Part shown: positions 1,508 through 15,631 of the stretch, in pieces
How the letters are laid out: each line of letters opens with the position of its first letter
How positions within the stretch are numbered: the stretch's first letter is position 1
Assembly (NCBI GenBank): GCA_026706025.1
Contig: JAPOZO010000095.1
Coordinates: forward strand, 62,001-126,000
Direction of reading: 5' to 3'
DNA: 64,000 bases
From: Candidatus Poribacteria bacterium
Lineage (GTDB): Bacteria > Poribacteria > WGA-4E > WGA-3G
Position numbers and translations under genes: made by a program
The notes under the pieces: generated by a model
Seen by the model: only the letters and a program-made list of their open reading frames with translations
Databases searched by the model: none
What the model was told of the DNA's origin: nothing

Positions 1508-2941
1508 TTATCGTCGCTGGTCAGGGCCACCTGTCGTGGTCACGGGTGCACTGGCACCCGGCATAATGTAGTGCTCACCTTTAGTAAGTTGGGCGACTTG
1601 CCGCTGGAAATCATCTCCAATGGAACCCGTTCTCATTGAGGTGACACCGCCGATGACGTAAACTCTTGCTCGCGCCCCACGGCACACTGAAACTGCTTTC
1701 CCCGCTGTATACCCTTTTTCGGCACGCTTACTCGTTGCTTCGTCCGTGACAATGATAAGCACAAGGTCACGCTCCTGTTCAGTCCGAAGTTTCGGTACGC
1801 CTTCAATAATGGCATCCAACAGATGCTCATCACCAGATTTTGGGAGCCGAAACATCACCTTCACCTGTTCGGACTCCAACGGCGGCTTGGTTACGACGAT
1901 AGTGCTTTCACCACCACCGACTGCTGCCCAAAACCGAATAATCCCAAACCGATAATCTAACCCCGCCGACTTAAACACAGAGACCATCAGATCCAAGCCA
2001 TTGCACGCCGCCTCCGTTTTAGGTTCCATGCTTAGACTGTAATCGAAAACGAACACAATGTCCACTTTACCGGGTTCACTCTGCACTAAACTTTCAGCAA
2101 TGCGTTTAAACACCCCGTCCACTCGAAGCAGCGCTTTATCGGCGACTGTTTCACCACTCTGGATCCGTTGTCCATCCATCCGCCGTTGATATGAATCAAT
2201 CGGGTACCATTTGCCACCTGTCCGATCGGTAAGTTCCGCTTGTACCTTTTCGCTCAGACCGATAAAACTAAGCTGTACACTGTTTTGCCGACATCGATTG
2301 ACAATCTGTTCACTAATTCTCCGCTTAGCATCTGCTTCTGTCCATAAGGTGCGCATCCGCGAATTACTAAGTACTACAAATTGTGTTGTAACCCCTTCTC
2401 GGAAATCCAACTCATTCAAACCTTTCACGATTGCATCGAGTCCATATCCAGGCTGAATTTTATTGTCGAATTTCGCCCGTATATCTTGTAAGGCGTTTTC
2501 AATACCGAGGTAATCAAAGGTCCAGGGATGAAATGTGTAAAGCGGTTCCCCTTGTACCGATTGAAAACTTATGAGGGCGAACCTATAGTCCATCGTTTTC
2601 GCCTCAATAACGGCAAGCATATCAATAAGTTTCTTTTCAAGAACAGCAAGCGATGCTAACATCCGTTTGTTACCGTCAACGAAGAACACGACATCTACTT
2701 TCGAGGGCTGGGTGTGTTGCGTCGCGCGTTTCACAATGTCTTTAAGGCTTTCACCTATATCCGCCTTGACAGTATCCGGTTTCTTGGCACTCCGGTCTAC
2801 CAGTATTCTATGTTTTCGTCGAGGCGGACGAACCTGTGCCGTTGCCTGCAGCGTACCTACCAACACACCCACAACGCACAAGCAACATATCCAGGTTTTT
2901 GGGGGCAGCTTGCAAACCAAAACTTGCCTAACAAAAGTCAT
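1508..2941 (-). CDS. Secreted protein with two von Willebrand A domains
   Basis: I chose ATG 2941 (477 residues) because GGAG lies just upstream; a TTG at 2956 would overlap the previous gene. A hydrophobic signal segment (residues 17-36) precedes two VWA domains at about 81-250 and 291-460. The second has an intact metal-binding DxSxS (D300, S302, S304). In the first the site is degenerate (D89, N91, R93), so it probably lacks normal MIDAS metal binding. VWA domains bind other proteins through a metal ion; the partner is unknown. It is the last gene of the minus-strand operon, 11 bp after the heme-barrel gene, and converges with the prenyltransferase-repeat gene. Confidence 0.82.
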   Translation of the reverse strand: MTFVRQVLVCKLPPKTWICCLCVVGVLVGTLQATAQVRPPRRKHRILVDRSAKKPDTVKADIGESLKDIVKRATQHTQPSKVDVVFFVDGNKRMLASLAVLEKKLIDMLAVIEAKTMDYRFALISFQSVQGEPLYTFHPWTFDYLGIENALQDIRAKFDNKIQPGYGLDAIVKGLNELDFREGVTTQFVVLSNSRMRTLWTEADAKRRISEQIVNRCRQNSVQLSFIGLSEKVQAELTDRTGGKWYPIDSYQRRMDGQRIQSGETVADKALLRVDGVFKRIAESLVQSEPGKVDIVFVFDYSLSMEPKTEAACNGLDLMVSVFKSAGLDYRFGIIRFWAAVGGGESTIVVTKPPLESEQVKVMFRLPKSGDEHLLDAIIEGVPKLRTEQERDLVLIIVTDEATSKRAEKGYTAGKAVSVCRGARARVYVIGGVTSMRTGSIGDDFQRQVAQLTKGEHYIMPGASAPVTTTGGPDQRR

Positions 2942-2952
2942 ACCATCTCCAA

Positions 2953-4479
2953 TCAAAATTCAACCAAAAGCTGCGGAACAATTGTCGCATTTCGTGTTGA
3001 CTTTTCAATGTTATTCACCTGATAAACCAACCGTGCCAGCGCGCCTTCAGTAAAATGCCACGTCAATGCACCACCGAATGTTGTCCACAGTTCTGCATCA
3101 CGTGATCTAATAAAATTAAACGTGCTATACTTCCCCGTGTTCGGATTCCATACATCATATTTTAACCGAACATCTATAGTTTCTGTCAAGGGAATTTCCG
3201 CATGCAGATAGTACCCCTCCACTGTTGCTGTCCGATCCCCTTTTATTGGCGTTTGCGCGTATTTCAAGAGGTAGGTGTCCGTCCCGCGCACCCACTCAGC
3301 AGCAAGATCAAGTCGCCAAATTTTGAACTTTGTCGCGAGCCCGAATCGCCGTTTGTAAAACAGTGTAGATGGATTGACATCCCCGTTGTTGGGATTGAAA
3401 GGATAACTGTTGCCATCAAAGTAAGATCCACCAAACCATATCCTTTTGCCTAAGAGTGAAGGCGTGCCGTTAACATGCAGAAATACAGGTGGACTGTTAT
3501 TTCGGATTGGTTTCAAAATACCGCCACCGCTCCCGTGCGGACCGATTCGGATACCAGACTCCACAGTTCCGTCCGTGACGGTACGCAGTGAATCCGGTCC
3601 ATCTGCAAGCGATGCTACATAGGCAACCGGTCCGATATACCCATTCACCTGCAACCCACGGTCAGAGATGAAACCAATATTCTTTCTGACCAAGTTGTAC
3701 AAAGGGTTCGCGGCAGCATCCGACTTAGTATCAATGCCGAAAGCGTGCCGGAATCGTCCGATCTTGAGCGACGCGCCCTTCGGTAATATCGGCAGCCCTG
3801 TGAGAATCGCGTAAATGAACCCGTGATCATCCGCCACTTGCGTGCCGAGTGGCGACGTCGTTAGGAGTTGTTCTCCCAAAACACTCACATGATCGCCTAC
3901 ATTTGTTGTTACGACGAATTCAGCGACATGGATGAGTGTTGTCCCAGTACTCCAGTTGCTACCATCAGGCACTAAATCCTGTCCGCGAGTGATACGGCGG
4001 ATATCCAATGCACCACCAAAGACAAGATTTCCGAAAGCATCGCTAAGAAAACCAGAAGTATCCGCCTTTTGTGTTTCATCTGCATCACTGAAACTAAAGA
4101 TACTTTCATCATCCTCCACACGGGCATCATCTGTTTCAGAGGCATTTTTTATAGGTTCAACGTTTTCAGGCGTACTCGCCGCGTCACCCGGATAAGAGCG
4201 GGCAATAATCTCAACAAGATTACTAAATCCATCTTTATCAGAATCCTCCTCTGCGATTCTCAGAAAGGTCGATGGATTCATACCATTGTGTAAGAACGCT
4301 CTGCCGTAAGGATTCGGCGAATCGCCACCCTTTTTTGACGAATGGCAAACGTTGCAACCACCTGCCCACCTGTATTCAGCGCGGAACATCTTGTAGAATG
4401 CGGGCAGCGCAAACGCGGAGTGCTCTGCAATCAGCCCGCAGAAAAGTGCTGTTAAGCAAAACAGCAAAGTTTTACGCAT
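2953..4479 (-). CDS. Outer-membrane protein: heme c domain fused to a beta-barrel
   Basis: The 508-residue protein starts at ATG 4479 behind GAGGAA and has a signal peptide ending near residue 24. One heme-c motif, C42-x-x-C45-H46, is followed by a Ca-binding-like acidic loop (about residues 78-90). From about residue 180 the sequence has alternating hydrophobic/aromatic strands and ends in Phe, the usual signature of an outer-membrane barrel. It therefore looks like a monoheme domain joined to a porin-like barrel. A role in electron passage or redox sensing at the outer membrane is inference. It is gene five of six in the minus-strand operon. Confidence 0.75.
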   Translation of the reverse strand: MRKTLLFCLTALFCGLIAEHSAFALPAFYKMFRAEYRWAGGCNVCHSSKKGGDSPNPYGRAFLHNGMNPSTFLRIAEEDSDKDGFSNLVEIIARSYPGDAASTPENVEPIKNASETDDARVEDDESIFSFSDADETQKADTSGFLSDAFGNLVFGGALDIRRITRGQDLVPDGSNWSTGTTLIHVAEFVVTTNVGDHVSVLGEQLLTTSPLGTQVADDHGFIYAILTGLPILPKGASLKIGRFRHAFGIDTKSDAAANPLYNLVRKNIGFISDRGLQVNGYIGPVAYVASLADGPDSLRTVTDGTVESGIRIGPHGSGGGILKPIRNNSPPVFLHVNGTPSLLGKRIWFGGSYFDGNSYPFNPNNGDVNPSTLFYKRRFGLATKFKIWRLDLAAEWVRGTDTYLLKYAQTPIKGDRTATVEGYYLHAEIPLTETIDVRLKYDVWNPNTGKYSTFNFIRSRDAELWTTFGGALTWHFTEGALARLVYQVNNIEKSTRNATIVPQLLVEF

Positions 4480-4527: not shown

Positions 4528-5523
4528 TTAATATGTGTCCAAGTCAATCTCTTCCTCGCTGAATCGGAGGTGCGCCTGATTGACCAATTCAACAATAGCG
4601 TCCCACTGCTTGCGTGTCTCTTCTGAAACTCCTGCCGCCTCAAGTGTCTCCGCAAATTTAAGAAGAGTTTCACTAAATTTATCCTGCAGATAGACATATT
4701 CCTCTGTCTGATCGGCATTCTTCGGCGGTTCAAAATTTGAGATGCTCTTTGCATATTTAGCGAGTCGTTTCGCCGCTGCGGTGGCTTCCGTTTTGCCCAC
4801 CTTGTCGTCAAAGTAGTCAACGATCACAAAATAGTCATCTATCATCAACATCATGAGGGCTTTCAAGTCCTCGACTTCAGGCATCTCTTCTTCTTCAGGT
4901 ATCTCTTCTTTTGAAGGAACCGGCTCAGGCGTTTTTTCGGTATCGGGTTTCGGTTTCCGTTTGAGGAAGAGTGCATAACTCATGACCAATGTCTTTTTCG
5001 GAATCAAGGCAACGGCATTTGAAGCGGTCTCGTGTCCGTCAATAGTTTCAATACCTTCTCCAACCTTGAAGGTATCATCTATGCCCATACCGATGAATTG
5101 CTTGAGGAACTTTCCACCTGCAATTGCATCTGTTTCCTTGTGTTCATAGATTGCGACTTTTACGACTTTCCCTTTCATATCCAGTCCGACAGCCCCTTCA
5201 ATAACACCACGCGGCCCCTTGATGTCAGAGAACAAAACCAAGCCCATTGGCTTCTTTTTATCATTAAGCGGGATATAAAAAATGGGTTTCAGGTCTTCTG
5301 CTCGAAGTTTCGTTCCAAGTTCTTTCTCAATTGTGGTGATCTTTTCAGGGGTGAGTACGGCACTCCGCTGAACGAATTTTTTCGCCTTTGGAAAAATAGC
5401 TGCTAATTTCTGACCGGGCCATTCCGTTTCATGCGCGATACCAAGTAGTGGTGTGCTTACCATGAAAAAAATGAGGACCAATAGAACACCCGCCCGAGGC
5501 CGGCGGTAGATTTGGATAAACAT
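4528..5523 (-). CDS. FMN-binding-domain envelope protein
   Basis: ATG 5523 is chosen because AAGGAG sits 7 nt upstream; the open frame runs further but overlaps the preceding gene. The 331-residue protein has a signal/anchor segment at residues 11-30. Residues ~95-185 resemble the FMN-binding domain of RnfG/NosR-type proteins (GPRGVIEGAVGLD, then a Gly-rich stretch and IDGHETASNA). The last motif is where such proteins carry covalent FMN on Thr, but it departs from the usual D-[AG]-[IVT]-[ST]-G-A-[ST], so flavinylation is uncertain. A Glu/Pro-rich linker and a helical C-terminal domain follow. The heme and CxxU neighbours suggest an envelope electron-transfer role. Confidence 0.7.
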   Translation of the reverse strand: MFIQIYRRPRAGVLLVLIFFMVSTPLLGIAHETEWPGQKLAAIFPKAKKFVQRSAVLTPEKITTIEKELGTKLRAEDLKPIFYIPLNDKKKPMGLVLFSDIKGPRGVIEGAVGLDMKGKVVKVAIYEHKETDAIAGGKFLKQFIGMGIDDTFKVGEGIETIDGHETASNAVALIPKKTLVMSYALFLKRKPKPDTEKTPEPVPSKEEIPEEEEMPEVEDLKALMMLMIDDYFVIVDYFDDKVGKTEATAAAKRLAKYAKSISNFEPPKNADQTEEYVYLQDKFSETLLKFAETLEAAGVSEETRKQWDAIVELVNQAHLRFSEEEIDLDTY

Positions 5524-5581
5524 CTGTAATCTCCTTATTATGACGCTGTTACGCCACGCGTGTCGCAACAGCAAGTTCACT

Positions 5582-6622
5582 CTATTCCGTAACTTCGACC
5601 ATGAAACTGGGCCATAGGATTTGGTCGCCATGTTTAAGTTGTCCAAAGATCTGATAAACGCCAGCTTCGGGAAATGTTGTCATGAGCATCACAGTGGGAC
5701 CAAATTTCTCCGGCGTGATGCCCTGATGCTGATGCCCAGTTGCGGATGTTTTTTCCATTTTATGTCCGGCGTGTGGATCCTCTTTCATTATCTTGCTGGC
5801 ATCTTCAGTTCCGAGAACTGTCCCGTGCGTATGTACAACACCATCCAGGCGTGTGCTGACAATAGCGAAGTGCATCGGTGCATCCAAGAATGGAACGAGA
5901 TCTGTAAGCGGTTTTCCGTCCTGCGAAAAGTGATAGGTAATGTGAACCATTTCACCTGCTTTAATCCGATCTGGTGCCTCCATTTTCGCCTGATATGTAG
6001 AAGCACCTTCTCCATCGGTTAAAGAAACCGCCTTTGTATACCTATCACCGCCTTCATCAGTATAACCGAAAACAACTTTTTCACGGCGGAAATCCTGCAC
6101 CGTATCCGTCAATTTTTCCTCACCCGCGACATCCACATATAGATATTTCGCGAATTCGGCATCCGCGGTCATTACATCAACAGCGAGGATGTATTTTCCT
6201 GCCGCTGGAAATGTAAAGTGGACGGTATACATGCCTTCCAATTCCATCATAATGTCACGGGATTCAAAATCCTCGGGATGAATATGCCCGATGATCTGTA
6301 AATTCTCACTGACCACGAGTACATGCAGGACGCGAGCATGATGCACCATGAGATCGGTAACCGGTTCACCTTTTGCATCGGTAAGATGAAACGTGAGTGT
6401 CGTTGGTGTTCCTGCCTGAATAGTTTGCGGTTCGGTGTGAAGCATAACACTGAGAGATGAAGTGTTGTGCATCTTATGGGCATTATGTCCGACATGCTCT
6501 TTAGCGAAACTTACTTCAACAAGAAACAGCACACCAACAGCTATCACCCCTATGCAATATAGCAATTCAAATTTCGCTATAATACGAAAAATCGAAAAAA
6601 AAGGGAAATTCCGGGATTGCAT
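5582..6622 (-). CDS. Membrane-anchored His-rich protein with two YtkA-like domains
   Basis: The 346-residue protein starts at ATG 6622 behind GGAGG. A hydrophobic segment (residues 20-40) is followed by a His/Met-rich stretch (HVGHNAHKMHN). Two related beta-sandwich units follow, each of the YtkA-like kind, marked by HIHPED (113-118) and HTHG (264-267). A further His cluster near residue 283 (HAGHKM, GHQHQG) suggests binding of copper or another soft metal. No catalytic motif is seen. It lies 18 bp after the probable selenoprotein gene and 58 bp before the FMN-binding gene, in the same operon. Metal handling is inference from the His/Met pattern. Confidence 0.7.
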   Translation of the reverse strand: MQSRNFPFFSIFRIIAKFELLYCIGVIAVGVLFLVEVSFAKEHVGHNAHKMHNTSSLSVMLHTEPQTIQAGTPTTLTFHLTDAKGEPVTDLMVHHARVLHVLVVSENLQIIGHIHPEDFESRDIMMELEGMYTVHFTFPAAGKYILAVDVMTADAEFAKYLYVDVAGEEKLTDTVQDFRREKVVFGYTDEGGDRYTKAVSLTDGEGASTYQAKMEAPDRIKAGEMVHITYHFSQDGKPLTDLVPFLDAPMHFAIVSTRLDGVVHTHGTVLGTEDASKIMKEDPHAGHKMEKTSATGHQHQGITPEKFGPTVMLMTTFPEAGVYQIFGQLKHGDQILWPSFMVEVTE

Positions 6623-6640: not shown

Positions 6641-7690
6641 TTAAAACGCATAAGATGTGTTCAGGGAAACTAAAGTGCCGAATTCAATTGCATCGCCTTC
6701 ATTATAAAGTGTCTTTTGCGTCAACGGGAACATGACGTTAGCAGATACGGAAATATCGTTCAGCGTTACCATGGACAGACCCAATGCTGCCATGGTATAA
6801 CGTAGCCCAGTATTAATATCGCGTTCCCCAGCCCATGAGGCAGCGGATTGATAAAATCCGAGATAGTTTCCGTTAAATGAGAACCAATCAAAGAGACGAT
6901 ACGTAAAGCCAGCCGTATAGCTCAACTCCACTGGACCTTGATAAGTCTTGCTATTTTCGTAGAAAGGCAACACTCCACGTGCAGAAGCAGTGATCATCAA
7001 ACCCCGGTAGAGAGGTAAACTGTAACGCAAATTGGCAAGCGGGTTAAAGGTACCCGTCCCGAACTGGATATGGAGGTGTTCAATGCCTCTATCTCCAAGT
7101 TTCCAGGGGTTATCCTCAGTTCTGCCGGTTGGGATCGTCGTGCCTAACCGGGCAAACAATACGTCACCCGTTTTAAAAAGTCCGCGAATTTCATAGCCTA
7201 AGAACAAATCTGAATCCGCGAGTCCGGTATAGGTTTCATTTCGATGATGGATATCCCTACTCCGTAAAATCGCATCCCTCTCTTCAGCACTGACCGGCTT
7301 AATCCACTCAACACTTGCTTCCTGGTTTTTGACTGCATACGGAACATTCGCATGCAACACCCACTGGTCGCTAAGTGAGTAATGTAACCCAACATCAATT
7401 CGGTAAGTACTCAACGCTACGTGGTGCCGATGTAAAGGAGCATCCACCACTTCTCCTGTTGGTGAAAGTCCTCTTGATTCAAGATGACCCCCTTTTGCAT
7501 CAGGGGACATTAACATATTAACATTCACTTGAAATTGATCTATCTCTTTTGAAGCCAAACTGACTTCACTCATCATACCGCTGGGCGGTAAGACGGGGTT
7601 GCTTCAAGCGGGACAACTTTCTTGGGCAAACCCAAAAGAAACAAACACCCAATTGAGCAATATCACGTGTAAAAACAAACGCATTTTCAT
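6641..7690 (-). CDS. Outer-membrane barrel with in-frame TGA in a CPA-TGA motif: selenoprotein candidate
   Basis: An open frame from Met at 7576 extends upstream in the same frame to ATG 7690, interrupted only by TGA at 7604-7606. Read through, the start encodes a complete Sec signal peptide (residues 1-22), then Cys26-Pro-Ala-TGA29, then a long barrel-like domain ending in Phe (349 residues). Reading TGA as selenocysteine gives a CxxU motif where many secreted barrel proteins carry CxxC directly after the signal peptide. Without readthrough the barrel would have no export signal. A hairpin lies at the right place after the TGA (7571-7595). The alternatives are a sequence error or a nonsense mutation. 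The upstream leader has AGGA and a 10-bp hairpin. The operon neighbours are metal/redox-type envelope proteins. Confidence 0.6.
7571..7595 (-). other. SECIS-like hairpin just after the in-frame TGA
   Basis: Starting 9 nt after the TGA, the transcript can form an outer 4-bp stem (CGTC/GATG with one G-U), a T-T mismatch and a perfect 6-bp stem TACCGC/GCGGTA around loop CCA. If the closing C-G pair opens, a G lies at the loop start 18 nt after the TGA, within the range known for bacterial SECIS elements. The loop does not show the best-known GU pattern, so the assignment is tentative. Confidence 0.4.
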
Positions 7691-7872: not shown

Positions 7873-8322
7873 TTAGCACGAGTAGCACGAGACAAAAGGA
7901 GGTCCTCTACGGGTTAGAGGGTGACCGGGGAAAAGTGTAGAAACTAAAGGGACGGAAGAAGTCTTAAAAGACTCTTCGAGGGCAACAGGTAAAGTCGCCG
8001 AGATCGGAAGAATCGAGATCAGAGACTGTCCGATCAATTCACGGAATTCGGGGATGTTGTCTCTGATGTCTGGAAGCACAAGTTCCAAATCAGTTGCACA
8101 GCACAGCTTACCACTTTCCAATGGATTTCCGGCTTCACCCGCTGTGTCTGTTTTAGTGTTTTGGCAGCAAGTTCCGCGGGTGCCAGTATCTCCACTCAGC
8201 ATTTCCTGAGACACATCATGGCAGAACTTTTGTTCAAAAGTCGCACAGAGGAGTGGGCACACCGAATAGATGTACAATAACCCCACGAGTAAGATAAGAA
8301 CCTGCCGATGTTTTCGCAACAT
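7873..8322 (-). CDS. Small secreted cysteine-rich protein
   Basis: ATG 8322 starts a 149-residue protein with a signal segment (residues 8-27) and many cysteines (22, 26, 34, 52, 53, 74, 75, 146, 149), including two CC pairs and a C-terminal CYSC. I do not recognise the family. GGAG lies 11 nt upstream of the start, a weakly placed ribosome site. It is the first gene of the minus-strand operon behind a sigma70-like promoter at 8380-8409. The paired cysteines would suit metal binding or disulfide exchange, in keeping with the CxxU, heme and flavin proteins that follow. Confidence 0.65.
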   Translation of the reverse strand: MLRKHRQVLILLVGLLYIYSVCPLLCATFEQKFCHDVSQEMLSGDTGTRGTCCQNTKTDTAGEAGNPLESGKLCCATDLELVLPDIRDNIPEFRELIGQSLISILPISATLPVALEESFKTSSVPLVSTLFPGHPLTRRGPPFVSCYSC

Positions 8323-8684: not shown

Positions 8685-8764
8685 ATTGACAAACCGCACG
8701 CTAAAACTAACATTCTGAAGTGTCGCGCTCCATTTTCCACGATAACAACAACGGAGGCAATATC

Positions 8765-9730
8765 ATGGCGTACATTAAGGTTCCAAAAGGATGGGAAATC
8801 CCCGAAAATCAGGTAACATCTGAGTCAGACTACATCAATCGCCGGAAATTCATCAAAGATTTGGGATTGGCAAGCGCAGGTACACTGTTATTTTCCACTT
8901 CAAATGCTTGTGCCCAAGGCAGAGGGGTTGAAAAACAATTAGAACCTTTTCGCGCGCAAACACTTGCCGCAGAAAACAACGCAAATTTCACTGTGGAAAG
9001 ACAGATGACTGACGAAGTTATCGCTGCTACCTACAACAATTACTATGAATTCACCACTTCAAAGAGCACTGTTTGGAAAAAAGTGGAAAAATTCAAGACG
9101 CGCCCTTGGGAAATCGAAATATCTGGGCTCGTCGAAAAGCCGATGACGATAGATGTAGACGAACTGATAAAACAGATGCCACTTGAAGAACGGATTTATC
9201 GGTTCCGTTGTGTCGAAGCGTGGGCAATGGTAGTACCGTGGATCGGTTTCCCGATGAAAGCGTTACTTGAAAAAGTACAGCCTAAAGCTGAAGCGCAATA
9301 TGTGCGAATGCTTACATTTTTGGATGCTGACATGGCACCACAACAACGAGATCCTTATCTGCCGTGGCCCTATTTTGAAGGGCTAACACTTGCCGAGGCG
9401 ATGAATGACTTGACGCTACTCACCGTCGGCATCTATGGACATATTTTACCGCCACAGCATGGCGCACCCATCCGGCTCATCGTGCCTTGGAAGTACGGGT
9501 TCAAAAGTATCAAATCCATCGTTAGTATCGAATTGACGGATCAACAGCCGCGCACCTTCTGGAACACGCTTGCACCAAGGGAGTACGGCTTTGAAGCAAA
9601 CGTCAACCCTAACGTCCCACATCCACGTTGGTCCCAAGCCAGCGAGCGGATGATTGGCACTGGCAAAAGACTCCCCACCTTAATCTATAACGGTTATGGC
9701 GATGCTGTCGCGCACCTTTACGAAAGGTAA
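8765..9730 (+). CDS. msrP: Periplasmic molybdopterin oxidoreductase, MsrP/YedY type
   Basis: ATG 8765 is preferred over 8720 because GGAGG lies 8 nt upstream; it gives 321 residues, close to E. coli MsrP. A twin-arginine signal (NRRKFIKD, residues 25-32) sends the folded enzyme to the periplasm. The sulfite-oxidase-type core shows the molybdenum-ligand Cys in FRCVEAW (C149), then GFPMKALL, PWKYGFKSIKSI and a C-terminal YGFEANVNP. MsrP reduces methionine sulfoxide in envelope proteins. Its usual heme partner MsrQ is not adjacent, so the electron donor must be elsewhere or different. A serpin gene follows after 18 bp and is probably co-transcribed. Confidence 0.88.
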   Translation: MAYIKVPKGWEIPENQVTSESDYINRRKFIKDLGLASAGTLLFSTSNACAQGRGVEKQLEPFRAQTLAAENNANFTVERQMTDEVIAATYNNYYEFTTSKSTVWKKVEKFKTRPWEIEISGLVEKPMTIDVDELIKQMPLEERIYRFRCVEAWAMVVPWIGFPMKALLEKVQPKAEAQYVRMLTFLDADMAPQQRDPYLPWPYFEGLTLAEAMNDLTLLTVGIYGHILPPQHGAPIRLIVPWKYGFKSIKSIVSIELTDQQPRTFWNTLAPREYGFEANVNPNVPHPRWSQASERMIGTGKRLPTLIYNGYGDAVAHLYER

Positions 9731-14576: not shown

Positions 14577-14852
14577 ATGACCGGAGATGCATTGGGTTTA
14601 GTTGAAACGAGAGGCTTAGTTGGGAGTATTGAAGCTGCCGATACGATGGTGAAAGCAGCGAACGTCCAACTTATCGGTTACGAGCAAGTCGGTGGTGGTT
14701 ATGTGACCGTCATGGTGCGTGGTGATGTCGGGGCAGTGAAAGCCGCAACGGATGCCGGGGCTGAAGCAGCTGCACGCGTCGGCGAAGTTGTTTCTGTTCA
14801 CGTAATTCCACGTCCACATGCTGAAGTCGAGACCATCTTAAAGAAAGCGTAA
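14577..14852 (+). CDS. Bacterial microcompartment hexameric shell protein (BMC-H)
   Basis: The 91-residue protein is a single BMC domain of PduA/CcmK/EutM type: [20 protein letters not shown] at the start, then [20 protein letters not shown], a GDVGAVKAA helix and the IPRPH segment near the end. Such hexamers tile the facets of polyhedral protein organelles. AGGAGG lies 14 nt and a second AGG 6 nt upstream of the start. It is the first gene of a promoter-led trio with PduL and a flavoprotein. No BMC pentamer gene is present in this window. Confidence 0.96.
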
Positions 14853-14926
14853 ACTATGCGTAAATGGATTGACAACACGTCGCTTGAGAACGTTTGCAAC
14901 ATCCTAACAGAAAAGGCGAACTATAA

Positions 14927-15631
14927 ATGCCAGACCGTGCCCTTGTTGAGTTGATTACCCGCCGTGTCGTGAACAAGCTGACGACGGACCAAGCGTGTAG
15001 TGGTTGTGCTTTGAGAAGTTGTGATGCCGGAAATCGCGCATGTGATGCCGTCACACAGCAGCAGCAAATCCCCGTTGGTGTTTCAGCACGACATGCCCAT
15101 GTAACGCAAGAACATCTTGAGATCCTCTACGGTGCCGGACACCAACTCACCGTCTATGCGCCTCTATATCAACCTGAAGCATTCGCTGCGAACGAGACAC
15201 TGACCATCGTCGGAAAGCGGATGCGGGCTATTGAAGCCGTTCGTATTCTTGGACCTGTGCGGGATTATTCCCAAGTAGAAATCGCACAAACAGAAGCGAT
15301 CCGTCTCGGTTTAAGCCCACCTATCCGAGACTCAGGCGACCTTGTTGGGGCAGAACCTATTACTCTCATTGGACCCGCAGGGAGCGTCTATTTAGAGGAA
15401 GGGGCTATCTGTGCTACACGGCACATCCACATGACCCCCAGTGATGCTGACGCGCTCAATATTAGCGAAGAAGATCTTCTAAAGGTCCACTTCCCGGGTG
15501 AGCGAGCTTTGACGTTTGAAAATGTCCGACCCAAAATTTCCGAAGGCTATGTGCTTCAGATGCACTTAGACACCGATGATTCCAATGCCGCAGGTTTGAA
15601 GGGTGGCGAACCTGTTGAAATCGTGCGTTAG
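14927..15631 (+). CDS. pduL: Microcompartment phosphate acyltransferase PduL
   Basis: The 234-residue protein has the two PduL His motifs SARHAHVT and ATRHIHMTP that bind zinc, with VKVHFPGERALTFENV-like spacing near the C-terminus. PduL converts acyl-CoA and phosphate to acyl-phosphate and free CoA, recycling CoA inside the organelle. Residues 1-20 (ALVELITRRVVNKL) form an amphipathic helix of the kind that targets enzymes into the shell. A Cys-rich insertion (CSGCALRSC, then CDAG) between this helix and the core is unusual. It follows the shell gene by 74 bp. Confidence 0.93.
   Translation: MPDRALVELITRRVVNKLTTDQACSGCALRSCDAGNRACDAVTQQQQIPVGVSARHAHVTQEHLEILYGAGHQLTVYAPLYQPEAFAANETLTIVGKRMRAIEAVRILGPVRDYSQVEIAQTEAIRLGLSPPIRDSGDLVGAEPITLIGPAGSVYLEEGAICATRHIHMTPSDADALNISEEDLLKVHFPGERALTFENVRPKISEGYVLQMHLDTDDSNAAGLKGGEPVEIVR

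Follow-up and report, generated by a model that had tools for sequence, protein, structure and literature searches.

A probable outer-membrane barrel selenoprotein family in Poribacteria, with one or two selenocysteines next to the signal peptide

The stretch of DNA analysed here (the window, 64,000 nucleotides from a Candidatus Poribacteria genome) carries on its reverse strand a gene whose frame is crossed by a TGA codon, and the question raised by this locus is whether this codon ends translation or is read as selenocysteine (Sec). Translated with TGA as a residue, the frame 6641..7690 (minus strand) encodes 349 aa, an assignment based on translation and on orthologues, and its sole internal TGA is residue 29 (7604..7606, minus strand). 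This codon is preceded by MKMRLFLHVILLNWVFVSFGFAQESCPA and followed by the barrel: the translated N-terminus is MKMRLFLHVILLNWVFVSFGFAQESCPAU, then comes a 320-residue domain with a terminal Phe. Translation thus confirmed the first-pass annotation, which had described a frame joining a signal peptide to a barrel and broken only by this TGA. The predicted Sec-pathway signal peptide (7625..7690, minus strand) also stands: its shape is typified by a short basic n-region, a hydrophobic core and G-F-A, with cleavage placed after GFA (residue 22), and its region is kept in frame across orthologues (dN/dS of 0.31). The TGA is the second position of a motif whose first position is Cys26 (TGT, 7613..7615, minus strand), a codon that is TGA in most homologues.

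Coding conservation is present on both sides of the TGA. In the 29 orthologues without indel, the region 5' of the TGA has a dN/dS of 0.20, and the residues QESCPA show no amino-acid change at all despite a pS of 0.64. This pattern of substitutions indicates that purifying selection at the protein level extends across the TGA. The motif region was also to be checked in close relatives, and the same single TGA was found in 33 of 35 relatives of the same genus, with orthologues 77-90% identical. The two exceptions are a copy that ends before the motif (G004) and a genome with the paralogue only (G015).

Among more distant homologues, 93 distinct sequences reach the motif. All 93 have TGA at position 2; TAA, TAG and sense codons, Cys codons included, do not occur there in this set. 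Position 1 is TGA in 59 sequences and TGT or TGC in 34, so that Sec/Cys exchange among homologues is seen at position 1. Such a distribution of in-frame TGA is far beyond chance. The commonest motif is S-U-G-A-U-S-N-P, the group of the window has S-C-P-A-U-S-N-P, and one other copy has S-C-S-A-U. The window's own genome contains a paralogue (C56:191557-192633, about 55-59% identity) with two TGAs, and the same number is found in nearly all relatives from other parts of the order. On the tree, two separate switches between UxxU and CxxU are required. The double-Sec form UxxU is probably ancestral in the family, and CPAU is probably a later change from the SUGAUSNP form. The first-pass annotation had taken CPAU for the Sec version of a CxxC motif and had proposed looking for CxxC in homologues; none was found, and the motif does not look like such a version, the commonest and probably ancestral form being UxxU.

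Of 85 genomes searched across the phylum, 67 contain the gene; some other genomes of the order lack it. Among the matches listed for these 85 genomes, every full-length copy contains one TGA or more, the matches without TGA are incomplete and no Cys-only form was found. The Cys-only form is likewise absent from the best 80 loci of a genome collection scan, all of them in Poribacteria, and plasmid records gave no homologue. The query of the scan consisted of peptide patterns from the barrel family itself, and a distant Cys homologue could therefore have been missed. Five distant TGA-free barrels (L062-L066, about 25-30% identity) were considered as Cys homologues and rejected, as the motif is absent from them. 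The comparison of these sequences thus describes a selenoprotein family apparently without any selenium-free form. Three fragments of the barrel gene are apparently decaying (G046:C20:9090-10115, G063:C2:632590-633145 and G082:C1:1198170-1198780). In addition, one genome has a copy (L121:6001-7080) in which a further TGA, the third in frame, replaces a Trp codon that relatives conserve (MMRUFD). We did not count this codon as Sec, since it falls at a conserved Trp and is probably a single-base change or an error.

We then searched for the selenocysteine machinery in the same genome, a check already suggested from the sequence, and SelA, SelB, SelD and tRNA-Sec were all found. In this 6.27-Mb genome, tRNA-Sec (78 bits, UCA anticodon) directly adjoins selB, selA scores 604 bits, and selD (360 bits) is of the Sec type, with its own TGA in KCAGUASK. 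By eye, a short-spaced hairpin candidate is visible 3' of the TGA of selD (G000:C56:238667-239590, locus L070). A second SelB-like stretch (G000:C40:27448-28662, locus L010; 190 bits), also seen in G030:C60, has one internal TAA and is possibly a degraded or divergent second SelB. At the scale of the phylum, tRNA-Sec was found in 73 of the 85 genomes. Eight genomes carry the barrel gene without a tRNA-Sec match; most of them have selA, selB or a Sec-type selD, which is consistent with assembly gaps, and the poorest of the eight (G068) is 73% complete. Some of the fragmented genomes that carry the gene gave no match to tRNA-Sec or to selA. Two genomes (G051 and G055) have neither tRNA-Sec nor selA, and the barrel gene is absent from both.

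Two tandem hairpins lie directly 3' of the TGA, with a joint energy of -21.1 kcal/mol. The proximal hairpin 1 (7571..7595, minus strand; CGUC-U-UACCGC-CCA-GCGGUA-U-GAUG) has an energy of -11.6 kcal/mol (z of -4.7). Hairpin 2 (7550..7568, minus strand; UGAAGUCA-GUU-UGGCUUCA), our SECIS candidate, has an energy of -7.2 kcal/mol alone (z of -4.3), and its form across homologues is UGAAGUCA-GUU-UGRCUUCA. The 75 nt after the TGA reach -21.3 kcal/mol versus -15.7 kcal/mol for synonymous recodings (mean z of -1.7), and the same stability test at nine other positions of the gene gave z values from -0.84 to +0.25. Pairing in hairpin 2 is kept in about 95-98% of the cells compared, with compensatory changes at four pairs (e.g. 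C-G to U-A, A-U to G-C and U-A to C-G). Among orthologues, its codons have a pS of 0.002 versus 0.515 in the rest of the gene, the lowest value among forty other windows of the gene being 0.331, and amino-acid changes outnumber silent ones. Because silent change is rarer there than amino-acid change, hairpin 2 bears the signature of selection at the RNA level. In the whole genome its 17-nt core has just two occurrences, one in each paralogue. Hairpin 1 covaries moderately, with changes on both sides at two pairs in the UxxU set, and it is mildly constrained at synonymous sites (pS of 0.357). An alternative pairing of hairpin 1 (columns 28-32/40-44) was discarded, as it shows no two-sided changes. 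At roughly the position of hairpin 2, the most distant homologue (L060) carries a hairpin of another sequence.

According to the bacterial SECIS model, the stem has 4-16 bp and the apical loop 3-9 nt with a G in the first two loop positions (pattern N1-G[G/U]-N-N2), the distance from UGA to loop is 16-37 nt and the energy is at most -7.5 kcal/mol (PMC13188914). Hairpin 2 follows the stem and loop rule, with 8 bp and a GUU loop closed by A-U. However, its distance from the UGA is 43 nt in the window and typically 40-46 nt in homologues, outside the 16-37 nt range, and its -7.2 kcal/mol alone compares with the limit of -7.5. An atypical SECIS has precedent, since a subset of known elements falls outside the model (PMC13188914). 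Hairpin 1 has a suitable spacing, but its loop lacks a G and its synonymous constraint is mild, and hairpin 2 is therefore preferred as the SECIS proper. No Rfam family matched the window at gathering thresholds. We propose that the UGA would be decoded by SelB and tRNA-Sec under the direction of an RNA hairpin inside the coding region; hairpin 2 would bind SelB, and hairpin 1 may shorten the path or pause the ribosome.

Taken as a whole, these observations make it almost certain, on comparative grounds, that the UGA at 7604-7606 is decoded as selenocysteine. The presence of Sec in the protein is inferred from the conserved frame, the conserved TGA, the Sec machinery and the conserved RNA hairpin. 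The insertion proposed in the first-pass annotation is thus well supported, by the full machinery, the invariant codon and a SECIS-like RNA that covaries and tolerates almost no synonymous change. If the TGA were instead a true stop, a mutation or an assembly error, the gene would be broken or its product would start at the ATG at 7576, from which a 311-aa open frame does run. This start is not conserved (relatives have SGIGEVSLAS) and would cost the signal peptide; moreover, the same TGA is found in independently assembled genomes of many species and selection acts on both of its flanks. The conservation data thus refute a stop codon, an internal start at 7576 or a pseudogene, which we regard as practically out of the question, and readthrough was rightly preferred over a stop. 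Reading of the UGA as Cys or Trp by a suppressor tRNA would need nothing more than the conservation of the frame. It is nevertheless very improbable, given that a full Sec system exists in the genome, that TGA and Cys codons replace each other at position 1, a behaviour typical of Sec/Cys pairs, and that a dedicated hairpin lies 3' of the codon.

Concerning the fold, the AlphaFold2 model, built with 28 related sequences (pLDDT of 70.5, pTM of 0.69), has about twelve long strands and ends in Phe; residues 11-49, which bear the motif, have a pLDDT below 50. The best match among solved structures is the COG4313 channel of Pseudomonas putida (Z of 24.0 over 248 residues), followed by FapF (Z of 22); the copper channel PcoB is also among the matches (Z of 12.7). 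The window protein has no Pfam match at E<=1 and no NCBIfam match. Weak matches to PF13505, the generic outer-membrane barrel model, and to PF13557 were obtained in 17 and 10 of the 28 family members, respectively. The earlier barrel claim thus holds: with such a predicted fold and such matches to solved barrels, the protein is almost certainly an outer-membrane beta-barrel. The match to a 12-stranded fold does not by itself establish function. In COG4313, the N-terminal segment enters the lumen from the periplasmic side and occludes it (PMC4493636). The segment before the first strand would be expected to fold in the same way here, and the analogy suggests a position of the Cys/Sec pair inside the lumen, where a Sec/Cys or Sec/Sec pair could act as a soft-metal ligand or as a gate. 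The invariant His residues (69, 87, 89, 148, 149, 205 and 207) would lie at the extracellular end according to the strand order of the model. We tentatively combine several of these features into one picture, which is possible but far from assured: UGAs 12 nt apart would share a single distal SECIS placed behind a hairpin, beyond the usual spacing, and the Sec-Gly-Ala-Sec or Cys-Pro-Ala-Sec sequence would form a selenol plug in the channel, in a family with no selenium-free form.

We then looked at the genes surrounding the barrel gene, all on the minus strand unless stated. Upstream is a secreted Cys-rich protein of 149 aa (7873..8322; cluster 4, no Pfam or NCBIfam match), which almost always occupies this place (28 CxxU loci, with 2 further loci of the UxxU form). 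Downstream are a YtkA-like periplasmic protein (5582..6622; PF13115, 36.6 bits for a cut-off of 25.9), an FMN-binding/RnfG-like protein (4528..5646; PF04205 just above the cut-off and a weak rnfG match), a 508-aa protein with a CNVCH haem motif followed by a part judged barrel-like by sequence inspection only (2953..4479; NF041762 diheme_GEGP at 2.5e-15, below the cut-off) and, as the last conserved member of the row, a 482-aa protein that is VWA-like by inspection (1508..2956; cluster 21, with gene order kept at about 10 loci). This downstream set of YtkA-like, FMN-binding, CxxCH and VWA-like proteins is shared by about 10 loci, including the window. In 19 genomes, the genes downstream of the orthologue encode a YHS protein, two outer-membrane efflux proteins and a CusB-type adaptor with three heavy-metal-binding domains, i.e. 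most of a Cu/Ag-type efflux set. The UxxU paralogue has other neighbours, an aldo/keto reductase and a peptide-type ABC transporter. Two further observations were made on the plus strand of the window: the catalytic subunit of the periplasmic methionine sulfoxide reductase MsrP (8720-9730, divergent, 442 bits), which adjoins the gene row at 19 loci, and, from translations only, a microcompartment shell-like protein followed by a PduL-like phosphate acyltransferase (14577-15631).

The product would be an exported 12-stranded barrel with a Cys-Pro-Ala-Sec pair in its mature N-terminus (QESCPAU), and it would most likely pass or capture a soft metal ion of the Cu/Ag class, acting with the periplasmic metal-handling and efflux proteins encoded nearby. 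We consider such a metal function somewhat more plausible than its absence, and we place about the same modest confidence in the explanation as a whole (a Sec-bearing barrel, a lumenal pair and soft-metal handling). Alternatively, CxxU or UxxU could form a redox couple (selenenylsulfide or diselenide) that reduces peroxides or transfers electrons at the outer membrane; its electron partners would then be the neighbouring FMN-binding and haem-motif proteins. Both motifs are redox motifs in many selenoproteins (PMC13188914), and the next genes in the window (FMN-binding/RnfG-like and CxxCH) and the divergent MsrP would fit such a role. But the protein has no thioredoxin-like fold, the FMN and haem genes are missing beside most orthologues, where efflux genes are found instead, and the invariant His residues suggest metal binding. 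A redox couple is thus a serious but less probable reading, and soft-metal handling is favoured because of the neighbouring genes, among them the one for the YtkA-like protein in the window, and because of the invariant His residues. The link with metals is not general, as the genes downstream in the window are not efflux genes and the neighbours of the UxxU paralogue differ. Because the neighbours of the double-Sec paralogue differ, the chemistry of the N-terminal pair, rather than one substrate, may be the property shared by the family.

Finally, we compared the family with known systems. COG4313 (Pput2725, PDB 4RL8) is also a 12-stranded barrel with an N-terminal segment before strand 1, but it is only about 11% identical to the window protein, which has no match to PF13557 (Phenol_MetA_deg), the model to which COG4313 corresponds. 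COG4313 proteins are implicated in the uptake of hydrophobic molecules, and the structure paper does not mention cysteine (PMC4493636). PcoB (PDB 7PGE) shares a barrel, a disordered metal-binding N-terminus and a copper operon context (PMC12509749); however, its tail is His/Met-rich and has no Sec, and a Z of 12.7 shows no more similarity than any barrel of comparable size would. Outer-membrane selenoproteins had been called rare, which is right, yet they are not new, as two barrels are already catalogued, an MtrB/PioB-type barrel and a TonB-dependent receptor (PMC13188914, PMC12013277). These barrels with predicted Sec (GSU2204 family, NF041027, and FCYXU, NF049945; PMC13188914) differ from the present family by another motif at another position and by a single Sec, and neither model matched the four family members searched against NCBIfam. 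A soft-metal context and Sec in a CxxU/UxxU-type motif are also found in the mercuric transport protein (C/SxxU), the SO_0444 Cu/Zn efflux transporter (UxC) and the metal-binding UxxU protein NF041115 (PMC13188914), but these belong to other families and none is described as an outer-membrane barrel. A 2026 review catalogues 119 prokaryotic selenoprotein families or subfamilies (PMC13188914); the barrel family matches none of these entries, is in neither Pfam nor NCBIfam, and no open-access paper on Poribacteria selenoproteins was found. If correct, our reading would add to this catalogue a phylum-wide family in a compartment with few selenoproteins and would place Sec in the outer membrane of sponge-associated bacteria. 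The family has no known Cys counterpart, unlike nearly all selenoproteins, its RNA signal tests the maximum distance of a bacterial SECIS from its codon, and its two paralogues, with one and two Sec, are a natural experiment on the reasons for which Sec is retained at one position and lost from the other. A selenoprotein is a known kind of protein; what is new to the open-access sources searched is the family itself, a UxxU pair placed N-terminally in a barrel, the apparent absence of a Cys form and the long-spaced SECIS candidate in tandem hairpins.
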